Positions 6,636 to 19,660 of a stretch of DNA of 26,317 bases are shown here, piece after piece. The notes under the pieces are model-generated. The model searched no databases. It was not told where the DNA came from and saw only the letters and a list, made by a program, of their open reading frames with translations. The stretch covers positions 1-26,317 of the IMG/VR virus record IMGVR_UViG_3300011114_000937; one strand, given 5' to 3'. Source of the DNA: a virus. The position numbers were made by a program, and so were the translations under genes. Position 1 is the first letter of the stretch. Every line of letters begins with the position of its first letter.

Positions 6636-6817
6636 TAGCAGCCGCCGGCCATCTTATACCGTGACCGTACCGGCTCGGCGTCAGTTGGCGCAAACTGCTC
6701 TTTGAGGGGATTCACCTTCATGAGGTTCCTGTCCACGTAAGTCGCCGGCACAGTGTTCCTATAGCTCTCGTTGCGCCCCGCAGCTTTCTTAGCCGGGGAC
6801 AATTTCGGATATGCCAT
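6635..6817 (-). CDS. small basic late protein, 60 aa
   Basis: A 60-aa basic protein (MAYPKLSPAKKAAGRNESYRN..., ending SRYKMAGGC) without hydrophobic segments. A clear AAGGAG site lies 9 nt upstream of the ATG, within the end of the small-terminase candidate, which overlaps this gene by 29 nt. Small proteins with a Lys/Arg-rich N-terminus and a conserved-looking tail occur near terminase genes in many phages, but I cannot assign a function. Virion or packaging accessory is the best guess from position. Confidence 0.7.
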   Translation of the reverse strand: MAYPKLSPAKKAAGRNESYRNTVPATYVDRNLMKVNPLKEQFAPTDAEPVRSRYKMAGGC

Positions 6818-7292
6818 TTATCGTTACTCCTTGGTTATCCCGCACACGACTCTGCAGGTCAATTAATCGATTAGCCAATTGCGCCAAGTGGTCGGCCGGC
6901 GGGGGGGCTACTATTGCGTTCCCTCCAATCCCCATAGCCTTCGCACCCAGCTCTACTGCCCTCAACACCACCTGATCACTTACCACCGGAGCGTCTAGTT
7001 TCTCCATGAGCCGCTCCAGACTCCGAATCGTCACGCCCCGAAAGCGCTCGTCCACGGTCAGCTTCAGCTGGGGATCAACGATCTCCTCCCGCCGCGCCGC
7101 CATCGCACTCTGCCAGGCATCGCTCGCCATGACATTACAGATCCAGCTCTGCGTGTACCCGTACCGAGCCGCCAGGGCACCTTGGCTTATCCCAGGATTC
7201 GAGATAATAAAGTCGATCATATCCGTATGCGAGTAGCGTAGTTTTGCTACCGCCTGTACTCTGTGGGAGATGTCCTCTATGCTCTGCATCAT
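6789..7292 (-). CDS. probable terminase small subunit (HTH protein)
   Basis: First gene of the leftward late operon. The N-terminal half holds a helix-turn-helix: DMIDFIISNPGISQGALAARYG followed by a recognition helix YTQSWICNVMASDAW. This is the arrangement in small terminases that bind the packaging site. A helical oligomerisation segment follows (VRDNQGVTINGISEIVPG at the C-terminus). The start is uncertain: GTG at 7310 or the ATGATG pair at 7292 and 7289 are all possible. I use 7292. A putative ECF-like promoter would place the transcript start almost on this ATG. The role is inferred from HTH, size and operon position. The gene order TerS, five small genes, TerL is unusual but known in phages. 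Confidence 0.7.
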   Translation of the reverse strand: MMQSIEDISHRVQAVAKLRYSHTDMIDFIISNPGISQGALAARYGYTQSWICNVMASDAWQSAMAARREEIVDPQLKLTVDERFRGVTIRSLERLMEKLDAPVVSDQVVLRAVELGAKAMGIGGNAIVAPPPADHLAQLANRLIDLQSRVRDNQGVTINGISEIVPG

Positions 7293-7296
7293 GCCT

Positions 7297-7327
7297 ATTT
7301 GACAACGCACCTGGCCTACTAGTTCCG
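7297..7327 (-). promoter_or_regulatory. possible ECF-like promoter on the minus strand, before the small terminase
   Basis: Reading the minus strand, CGGAAC (7327-7322) is followed after 17 nt by TGTC (7304-7301), extending to the -10-like TCAAAT. This matches the six plus-strand elements, with one change in the first base. The -10 ends about 5 nt before the ATG at 7292, so a transcript from it would be nearly leaderless. One such match could be chance in 26 kb. Low confidence. Confidence 0.3.
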
Positions 7328-7837: not shown

Positions 7838-7873
7838 TGGAACTTTCTAACGGTATGGATGTCATATCGTTAG
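7838..7873 (+). promoter_or_regulatory. ECF-sigma-like promoter B with overlapping inverted repeat
   Basis: TGGAAC (7838-7843) followed by TT, 16 nt in total to TGTC (7860-7863) within TGTCATAT. An 11-bp inverted repeat CTAACGGTATG / CATATCGTTAG (7847-7857 and 7863-7873, 5-nt spacer, one G-T mismatch) covers the -10 and start region and looks like an operator. The palindrome differs from the one at promoter A. Transcription from here would drive the 119-aa gene at 7911. Confidence 0.65.
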
Positions 7874-7910: not shown

Positions 7911-8270
7911 ATGAAACGTAAAATCGAAGCAGGTAAGATTGTATTCACGTTCGAAGGCTATGAGTCTATCGTGTTCGACAGCAACAAGGCAAGCTTGCCT
8001 AACATTAGCTACGCGACAATGCACGGGTTTAATCAGCGTATCGGTGACGCAGCAGCATCGAGCAAAACCGAGGGCGAGAGGCGTGACGCAGTGCAACAAA
8101 TGATCGCGCATTATGAGAGTGGCAGTGATGACTGGAACATCAAGGGTGACGGTAAACGTGCAGCACCCCAGAATGCCACCATTCTCGCCATTGCCAAAAA
8201 GCGCGGGTGCAGCTACGCCGAGGCCGAGGCATGGATAGCGGAACGGATGCTGGCCGAGCTCGCCGAGTAG
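7911..8270 (+). CDS. 119-aa early phage protein of unknown function
   Basis: A soluble protein with an N-terminal beta segment (KRKIEAGKIVFTFEGYESIVFD), a helix with YATMHGFNQRIGDAAA, a GEGER-like charged stretch and a C-terminal helix. The order 'beta hairpin, MHGFxQRIxDAAA, GS..W' is familiar from conserved hypothetical phage proteins, but no function is known to me. The start has GGAGG 5 nt upstream. It is alone between promoter B and a terminator at 8281, so it forms its own transcription unit. Single-gene control with an operator suggests tight regulation or high expression. Confidence 0.75.
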   Translation: MKRKIEAGKIVFTFEGYESIVFDSNKASLPNISYATMHGFNQRIGDAAASSKTEGERRDAVQQMIAHYESGSDDWNIKGDGKRAAPQNATILAIAKKRGCSYAEAEAWIAERMLAELAE

Positions 8271-8280
8271 AGCATACATC

Positions 8281-8314
8281 AGGCACCGTGACAGGGTGCC
8301 TTGTTGTGTGTTTT
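8281..8314 (+). terminator. rho-independent terminator
   Basis: AGGCACC (8281-8287) pairs with GGTGCCT (8295-8301) around a 7-nt loop and is followed by a T-rich tail ending in TTTT (8311-8314). It starts 11 nt after the stop of the 119-aa gene and closes the first early unit. Confidence 0.75.
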
Positions 8315-8360: not shown

Positions 8361-8613
8361 ACTACGTCTACAACGTATACGACACCACGACCCCCCCTTC
8401 CCTTTTTATTCCCAGTCCTGTGATATTCATTTCTCATATACGCGCCCGTTATCATCTAAGCTCTAGTTGTTTATAAGTTTTTTTTTTCTATTAGACTAGA
8501 GAGATAGAAGAACCTTAGAACATAATACACGCGAGAATGAGAATGGAAAGTAGGATGACTGGGAATTATTTTGATAGGGGGGGTGATGGTGATGTGTACG
8601 TTGTAGACGTAGT
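8361..8613. repeat. long imperfect inverted repeat (about 250 bp), noncoding
   Basis: Outer ends match over 20 bp with one difference (8361-8380 against 8594-8613). Inward, CCCCCCC (8391-8397) faces GGGGGGG (8577-8583). ATTCCCAGTC (8408-8417) faces GACTGGGAAT (8557-8566), and further matches continue to about 8460/8510 around a centre with a 10-T run (8478-8487). Arms are about 100 nt and broken by small mismatches. No frame in it has a ribosome site. Flanks give no clear target duplication. It sits between a terminator and promoter C. Possible roles are a replication origin, a structured RNA or a miniature element. Confidence 0.75.
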
Positions 8614-8631: not shown

Positions 8632-8661
8632 TGGAACTTTAGCGCCAGCCTGGTGTCTAAT
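8632..8661 (+). promoter_or_regulatory. ECF-sigma-like promoter C
   Basis: TGGAAC (8632-8637) with TTT following, 16 nt to TGTC (8654-8657), extending to the -10-like TCTAAT (8656-8661). It lies 44 nt upstream of the HTH gene at 8705 and just to the right of the long inverted repeat. It matches sigma-E-type promoters closely (GGAACTT-N16-TCTAA). Confidence 0.65.
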
Positions 8662-8704: not shown

Positions 8705-9013
8705 ATGCTAGATGAAGTGGCGGTAAGAAGGCTACGTGACCTGAAGGCGCGTGGGATGCTGAAGGTGCGGCAAGAAGCAATGTTCTATGGAGTAGGGAGT
8801 GAGTCAATCAGACGCGCAGTGCGAGGAGATACGTGGACGGGGCTGAGTATGAGCCCGCAGGAAGCGGATCTTGAAGGAGCAGTGGAAGCGAGTCTGGCAA
8901 AGCTTCAGCGGATGTTGGCGGAAGAGAGGGAGAGAGTAGCTATGCCTGACAAGGCGGTAGCAGAACTAGCGGGGCTAGCGGGGCTAAAAGGAGAGCATGA
9001 TGCAGGGTACTGA
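8705..9013 (+). CDS. small HTH DNA-binding protein, 102 aa
   Basis: The N-terminal part reads as a helix-turn-helix: VRRLRDLKARGMLKVRQEA then FYGVGSESIRRAVRGDTW. This is the pattern of short HTH units that scan for target sites (such as those next to homing nucleases or in small phage regulators). The second half is a charged helix (QRMLAEERERVAMPDKAVAEL) that could dimerise. It is first in an operon behind promoter C and next to the long inverted repeat, so regulation of that region is a possibility. RBS AGGAG lies 9 nt upstream. The regulatory role is inferred from the HTH only. Confidence 0.65.
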   Translation: MLDEVAVRRLRDLKARGMLKVRQEAMFYGVGSESIRRAVRGDTWTGLSMSPQEADLEGAVEASLAKLQRMLAEERERVAMPDKAVAELAGLAGLKGEHDAGY

Positions 9014-18304: not shown

Positions 18305-19660
18305 ATGAAACTTGTTCATATAGGCGCCATCAAGATCCTTCCTGATCGGCAGCGGCGTAACTTTTCTGCTGATGCTTTACACGAACTCACTGAATCAATC
18401 CGTGAGCGCGGCCTGTTCCATCCTATAATTCTTCGTATTGTAGGAGACGATTACATCCTTGTCTCCGGCGAACGGCGCTTACGTGCAATGACTGACATCT
18501 ATGATCTCGGCGGCAGCTTCAAGCACGATGGCGAAGTCATCCGTGAGTCCTTCATTCCCTACACTCTTCTCAATGAGCTGAATGAGCTGGCGGTTGAAGA
18601 AGCTGAACTTGAGGAGAACATCCGCCGTGCAGATCTTACTTGGCAAGAACGCGCCGCTGCTCATGCTAGACTTAGCGCCCTTCGGACAAAGCAAGCCGCA
18701 AGTCGTGGGGAAGCTCCGCCGACTGTCGCAGACATATCTCTCGAAGTTCGAGGCTCAAGTGACGGTATCCACCAAGAATCAACGCGCAGAGAAATTATTG
18801 TCGCAAAGCATCTTGACAATCCAGCTGTCAAAGCTGCCAAGTCTGTTGATGAAGCATTCAAAATACTCCGGAAAGAAGAAGGGACGGCCAAGTCAAAAGC
18901 GCTTGGAGAGCGAGTAGGTCGGACGTTCACAGCTGACTTGCATCGTGCGCTGAATGAAGACTCGCTGGCCTGGATGAAGGCGGCTGACGCAGGGCAGTTC
19001 GATGTGATACTCACCGATCCTCCTTACGGCATGGGGGCAGACGAGTTTGGGGATTCTGGTGGTATTGCTAGCTACTCGGTTGGCGTTACTGGCGGAGCAG
19101 GCGGAGTACACACATATAAAGATAACGAAGAAAACTTTCTCGAGATCATGAAAGTGCTGCCTTATGAAGCTTTCCGTTTGGCTAAAGAGCAAGCGCACCT
19201 ATACTGCTTCTGCGACATTGACTGGTTTATCCATTTGCGTAATGAGTTCCGTCTAGCTGGCTGGTGGGTATTCCGTACTCCCCTTATCTGGCACAAGCCT
19301 TCCGGTGCTAGGGCACCCTGGCCGGAGCATGGCCCTCAGCGCAAGTATGAAACTATACTCTACGCGGTCAAGGGCAAGCGTCCGGTACTCAAGATGGCAC
19401 CTGACCTGTTCGCACACCTTCCCGATAAGAATCTCGGCCATGCTGCACAGAAACCAATTGCGCTCTACGAAGATTTGCTACGGCGTTCGTGTCATCCAGG
19501 CGATTCAGTCTTCGATCCCTTCTGTGGCAGTGGCCCTATCTTTGCCGCCGCTCACGCGTTGAAGGTTCGTGCTACGGGAATTGAACTCGACACAGCTAAC
19601 TTCGGCATCGCGGTCAAGCGCATTGAACAACTGAAGGCTCAACTTGAACTGGATATCTAA
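18305..19660 (+). CDS. ParB-like domain fused to DNA methyltransferase
   Basis: A 451-aa two-domain protein. Residues 1-185 are ParB/Srx-like: ILPDRQRRNF, LHELTESIRERGLFHPIIL, GERR at 55-58 and ENIRR at 104-108, the ParB box signature, followed by a helical segment. Residues 210-451 are a methyltransferase with DPPY at 238-241, HAAQKP at 379-384 and the SAM-binding FDPFCGSG at 403-410 then GIELD at 425-429. The DPPY motif before the SAM motif means the beta-class order, N4-cytosine or N6-adenine methylation. It probably modifies phage DNA against host restriction, with the ParB domain as CTP-type or DNA-binding module. The end overlaps the polymerase start by one base. Confidence 0.9.
   Translation: MKLVHIGAIKILPDRQRRNFSADALHELTESIRERGLFHPIILRIVGDDYILVSGERRLRAMTDIYDLGGSFKHDGEVIRESFIPYTLLNELNELAVEEAELEENIRRADLTWQERAAAHARLSALRTKQAASRGEAPPTVADISLEVRGSSDGIHQESTRREIIVAKHLDNPAVKAAKSVDEAFKILRKEEGTAKSKALGERVGRTFTADLHRALNEDSLAWMKAADAGQFDVILTDPPYGMGADEFGDSGGIASYSVGVTGGAGGVHTYKDNEENFLEIMKVLPYEAFRLAKEQAHLYCFCDIDWFIHLRNEFRLAGWWVFRTPLIWHKPSGARAPWPEHGPQRKYETILYAVKGKRPVLKMAPDLFAHLPDKNLGHAAQKPIALYEDLLRRSCHPGDSVFDPFCGSGPIFAAAHALKVRATGIELDTANFGIAVKRIEQLKAQLELDI

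Follow-up and report, generated by a model that had tools for sequence, protein, structure and literature searches.

What kind of element is the long inverted repeat that lies in a noncoding gap of the virus record IMGVR_UViG_3300011114_000937, and would it act as DNA or as RNA? The window, meaning the whole stretch of 26,317 nucleotides analysed here, is a 26.3-kb virus record encoding TerL, a portal protein, a Pol A DNA polymerase, a primase-helicase, a ParB-methyltransferase and recombination genes. A sequence-only reading had proposed a replication origin, a structured regulatory RNA or a remnant miniature transposable element, and had described the repeat as either an old palindrome in decay or one kept by structure.

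The inverted repeat and its genomic setting

The inverted repeat was confirmed as a single ungapped register of 253 bp at 8361-8613, with its dyad centre at 8487. The left arm (8361-8486) is pyrimidine/C-rich on the plus strand and the right arm (8488-8613) is purine/G-rich, with the local inverted repeat reaching outward to 8352 and 8622, respectively. Among the 126 arm positions there are 79 Watson-Crick pairs, 12 G-T, 5 A-C and 30 other combinations. This is the top palindrome in the window: its local inverted-repeat score is 43.0, against a mean of 10.1 and a maximum of 16.5 in 400 dinucleotide shuffles, and the runner-up outside 8361-8613 scores only 15. BLAST against its own record recovered the match of the repeat to its own reverse (66% identity, E = 2.6e-11) and one copy only of the hairpin. 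The repeat matched no described family in Rfam, and its DNA matched none of the GenBank phages.

Most of the structural details in the sequence-only reading were borne out. In the outer 20-bp ends only position 18 is mismatched (G-T), the inner blocks keep the register (CCCCCCC with GGGGGGG, ATTCCCAGTC with GACTGGGAAT), and the T-rich centre is a T10 tract on the plus strand at 8478-8487. Folding the repeat as RNA, which had been suggested as a check, predicted a highly stable structure (-117.6 kcal/mol; z = -9.5 for the plus strand and -12.0 for the minus strand), and the predicted DNA fold has a z of -9.9. The supposed CGCG half-sites did not hold up, as the window shows no enrichment of the related motif CGCGGATTA and the arms keep no sequence between relatives.

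The repeat lies close to the point where late genes, leftward from about 7.3 kb, diverge from early genes, rightward from 7.9 kb. The left edge of this junction is a probable small terminase gene (TerS; 6789-7310, minus strand), named from its position adjoining TerL and from synteny, with no Pfam or PHROG match. Gene A (7911-8270, plus strand; 119 aa) stands between the TerS/A divergence and the hairpin, leaving 1-2 kb from terS to the hairpin. It belongs to a conserved family whose members invariably stand ahead of the hairpin in clade I; 24 members were aligned, and the AlphaFold model is confident (pLDDT 89). Gene A had no Pfam, PHROG or PDB fold match, and its candidacy as a known nucleic-acid-binding fold was rejected for lack of a PDB match. 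The terminator and promoter said to flank the repeat were both recovered, as a terminator-like stem at 8281-8301 (plus strand), between gene A and the hairpin, and as a promoter-like GGAACTT at 8633; by eye, comparable stems precede the hairpin in three related loci (L013, L004 and L128). Gene B (8705-9013, plus strand; 102 aa), helix-turn-helix-like by eye, is the first gene past the hairpin.

The window encodes a fusion of a ParB-like domain with a DNA methyltransferase (18305-19660) and a pyrimidine-dimer DNA glycosylase (PF03013; 9299-9763). Endonuclease VII-family (HNH) genes occur sporadically, beside gene B in L013 (3345-3824, minus strand) and in 7 other records. The L013 gene prompted the idea of a cruciform resolvase linked to the hairpin, which was rejected, with PF02945 present in 8 of 31 records and RusA in 0 of 31.

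A fixed address with free arm sequence

TerL searches yielded about 80 viral contigs, together with a few contigs from MAGs whose labels, Rhodocyclaceae or Pseudomonadota, give a hint of beta- or gammaproteobacterial hosts. In most loci, a strand-neutral inverted-repeat scan of the 7.5 kb upstream of TerL found one outstanding repeat; its score was usually 19-53, and the runners-up mostly stayed near 13-16. The slot in question is the gap that separates the first rightward gene past the TerS divergence from the second. It could be defined in 33 loci, and within these a slot score of 17 or more was counted as positive. An outstanding repeat occupies this same slot in 28 of the 33 loci, related contigs not being independent (L102, L103 and L106 are near relatives, and likewise L127, L133 and L135). 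The repeat is weak in three loci (L012, L139 and L141) and was not detected in the slot of two (L147 and L010). Gene mapping places the hairpin after gene A and before B/C in gene-A-type loci wherever it was detected; in clade II, which is without a recognisable gene A, it follows the first conserved rightward gene and precedes the second. Across the family the hairpin is 150-300 bp long.

The arms themselves are mostly unrelated between loci and often consist of (CAN)n/(NTG)n-like runs. Since arm alignments were too uncertain for column-wise covariation in subclades, we replaced it by an arm-swap test, in which the mean self score was 35.0 (minimum 21.4) versus 12.8 for left and right arms taken from different loci. 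Arms turn over while TerS remains 60-80% identical. Between L103 and L104, TerL is 98% identical, flanking DNA is 82-94% identical, and the apex and both flanks align, but the arms have been replaced (self scores 32 and 41, cross scores 15-18). Among the matches listed, a search with exact 15-mers from the window's own arm gave only chance single hits. Contigs L003 and L097, from close relatives of the window phage, stop short of the hairpin or inside it and fall outside the comparison.

The repeat is not a decayed relic; the other half of the earlier description, that it was kept by structure, stands. Relatives devoid of symmetry here, with arms evolving independently, had been named as the mark of a functionless repeat, and this pattern did not occur. 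A MITE or other transposon remnant, which should show conserved terminal repeats, mobile copies at several sites and target duplications, is excluded by the single copy, the fixed syntenic site, the unrelated arms and the presence in almost all relatives.

Turnover of this kind could also come from a functionless template-switch hotspot: an AT-rich place where replication or transcription pauses and palindromes repeatedly arise, are corrected and disappear. Template switching is known to make and maintain hairpins and to give multi-base compensatory changes in one event (PMC8794818), and L103 differs from L102 and L106 by two short changes, each of which betters pairing. The persistence of the AT core where arms are weak also agrees with such a hotspot. 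However, presence in 28 of 33 loci and a stable size across deep divergence are hard to explain without selection, and such palindromes are not seen elsewhere in these genomes, so we regard this explanation as improbable.

A structure-recognised start of DNA packaging (pac/cos-type) near terS is more doubtful still. The hairpin does lie upstream of terS, where cos or pac sites often occur, and three contigs (L097, L130 and L136) end inside it, but such breaks would arise just as readily where sequencing runs into a strong hairpin. Sequence specificity marks the known pac/cos sites, whereas here the arms turn over while TerS keeps its 60-80% identity, and gene A and the distance to terS intervene. 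Counting also L134 and L003, the latter ending just before the hairpin, the contigs that end inside or beside it probably do so through sequencing or assembly failure at strong hairpins. Contig breaks of this sort can conceal such elements in metagenomes.

AT-rich core, mismatches and early promoters

The centre of the palindrome is AT-rich. In the window, the 60 bp at 8467-8526 have 23% GC, the lowest of any such segment, and resemble an unwinding element. Over the hairpins, the central 40 bp of the dyad average 19% GC versus 45% in the arms. In 29 of 33 loci the slot contains the lowest-GC 60 bp of the whole locus, where its length would predict 2.3. This minimum also holds where arms are weak or absent; the exceptions are L131, without an AT minimum, and L009 and two clade II loci, where the site ranks 2-5. 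The site also holds the genome-wide GC minimum in the window and in five near-full-length records, of which one is taken as complete because it has 127-bp end repeats. Such an AT-richest segment is what an origin with a duplex-unwinding element would show. A T-run of 8-12 stands at the apex in nearly all gene-A-type relatives, always on the plus strand in clade I, while in clade II the apex is A-rich on that strand though flanking genes are still rightward.

More distant phages have something comparable. MW202796 (42% TerL identity) and the cultured Alcaligenes phage QDWS535 (36%) both have their genome-lowest-GC 100 bp in a (TA)-type palindrome upstream of terS, at 48.5 kb in QDWS535; we treat these palindromes as analogous to the hairpin and not as proven homologous. 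Of the annotated CDS of MW202796, two small ones at 18630-18852 overlap its (TA)-rich palindrome and are probably not genes.

The main rival to a DNA element is a long hairpin RNA from the plus strand, of which only the fold would matter while the arms turn over. With the promoter upstream it would form the 5' leader of the B operon, and with the promoter downstream the 3' tail of gene A. It might act on host dsRNA-binding factors, as a decoy or an inhibitor, or be an RNase III-processed regulator. The extreme predicted RNA stability suits this reading, as do the loop U-run on the plus strand in clade I and the better folding of the plus than the minus strand in 26 of 32 cases, but composition explains the G-T excess. 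Against it stand the reversed apex polarity of clade II beside rightward genes and the Rfam search without a match. An intrinsic terminator would have a GC-rich stem with a T-run directly behind it; in the window a T7 run lies a few bases past the stem, but relatives such as L102 have none.

Mismatches give a more direct comparison, as pairing selected in a transcript should over-represent G-U among them. An attempt to choose the strand by G-U excess failed, because the 165 GT versus 101 AC in T-apex hairpins, significant at first sight, were reproduced by the composition null. The idea was dropped and recast as a controlled comparison with terminators. Terminator-like stems of the same loci have 53 GT, 10 AC and 15 other mismatches, control stems without a T tail have 15, 14 and 49, and the isolated mismatches of the hairpins are 56, 36 and 115. 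The hairpins thus differ from terminators (p = 6e-10) and not from control stems (p = 0.22), with GT making up 27% of mismatches versus 68% in terminators; their overall G-T share also matches the composition null (0.626 vs 0.656). G-U is therefore not favoured over other mismatches on the strand that would be transcribed, and the wobble signature so strong in terminators is absent, which weakens the RNA reading without killing it, since long stems may tolerate mismatches.

Promoter positions bear on the same choice. Predicted promoters P_A (7839-7867, plus strand; GGAACTT-N15-GTCATAT), before gene A, and P_B (8633-8661, plus strand; GGAACTT-N15-GTCTAAT, RpoE/ECF-like), before gene B and 19 bp past the repeat, flank the window hairpin together with gene A. 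Relatives vary: ten loci have a predicted early promoter 18-55 bp past the hairpin and eight have one 25-80 bp ahead of it, and none has a strong one in both positions. Those ahead of it include RpoE-like promoters in L098, L107, L109, L009 and L145, in keeping with a hairpin RNA. The opposite arrangement, seen in the window, L102-106, L004, L005 and L013, several with a terminator-like stem before the hairpin, argues against one, as a promoter past the hairpin does not transcribe it there. A transcript is consequently not always formed from the hairpin. Taken with its points in favour, a hairpin RNA seems to us rather unlikely, though a serious contender.

Putative promoters of the form GGAACTT-N15-GTC(T/A)A precede early genes of the window at 7839, 8633, 9948, 11188 and 12413 (plus strand), GGAACTT occurring 15 times versus 3 expected, and the same type precedes the TerS-side gene of the cultured Alcaligenes phage (L165 48814-48842). 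They resemble host RpoE (sigma-E/ECF) promoters, and early transcription may rely on an envelope-stress sigma factor. Just before the hairpin, L102, L103, L104 and L106 share a conserved stretch of some 50-60 bp that contains GGATTA-N8-TAATCC. Next to the -35 box of the following promoter is a third copy, GGATTAC, so that the middle copy is able to pair with either of the other two.

The CBASS-activating phage RNA (cabRNA) is structured and arises from within the terS/terL coding sequence (PMC10686824). The hairpin, known from DNA sequence, shares its nearness to the terminase genes but is noncoding, single, long and upstream of terS/terL; homology was rejected, origin and form being different.

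A candidate replication origin region

The locus combines a fixed address, an AT minimum at the dyad, complementary arms free in sequence and an adjoining early promoter on either side. The AT-rich tip, the absence of a G-U signature and the placement of an early promoter before or after the hairpin favour a DNA element. Among the candidates of the earlier reading, the transposon remnant falls away, and between origin and RNA the evidence leans, without settling the matter, to the DNA level. Our leading interpretation, to which we give an even chance, is a cis-acting DNA element with an AT unwinding core in a structure-only palindrome, most likely a replication origin region. More tentatively, such an origin could be specified by shape and melting alone, its free arms being continually rewritten together by template switching.

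Under the origin interpretation, transcription-driven supercoiling or an R-loop from the early promoter would open the AT core, and the arms would fold as hairpins or a cruciform, holding it open. The phage helicase-primase or replication machinery could then load at the opened core and initiate there. The arms would be quickly rewritten because only complementarity matters, probably by template switching in replication, one arm being copied onto the other. The Pol A, primase-helicase and recombination genes of the window are a supportive context. DnaA boxes are not enriched (0.083 per kb near versus 0.058 far), and iterons are absent at the site. Cumulative GC skew, also suggested earlier, has its minimum about 1 kb from the hairpin, at the TerS/A divergence, and turns with gene direction; an origin call by skew was rejected as confounded with it. 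Against an origin, a symmetric cruciform does not need the T-run strand bias of clade I, although in established origins an unwinding element can have one T-rich strand, and the AT-rich apex equally suits an unstructured RNA loop.

The closest documented precedent is given by the origins of c2-type lactococcal phages (Ceduovirus), which are noncoding, lie at the early/late junction and are flanked by the first two early promoters (PMC7150918). They comprise three types without mutual similarity, each more than 90% conserved within type, and all support plasmid replication (PMC7150918). Our locus is likewise noncoding at the early/late divergence, with gene A intervening, is flanked by the predicted first early promoters and keeps its address without sequence similarity. 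Unlike the c2-type origins, whose function was demonstrated, it is read from sequence alone, gene A lies between the promoters, and nearly every lineage has its own arms, a long palindrome and a genome-minimum-GC dyad being the common features. The oriS and oriL of herpes simplex are palindromic viral origins with an A/T centre whose arms carry conserved sites for the origin-binding protein. The hairpins share with them a long palindrome, an AT-rich dyad and nearby divergent promoters, but showed neither sequence conservation nor an initiator site.

Of the replication and packaging sites known in tailed phages, the majority are recognised through their sequence. Here, conservation extends only to address, complementarity and melting, with arm turnover even between phages whose terminases are 98% identical. 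If the origin interpretation is true, structure alone can serve as a stable genetic signal, and these loci would be a natural record of inverted-repeat rewriting. It would also provide a search rule for the origins of uncultured phages: the genome GC minimum together with the dominant inverted repeat at the early/late junction.
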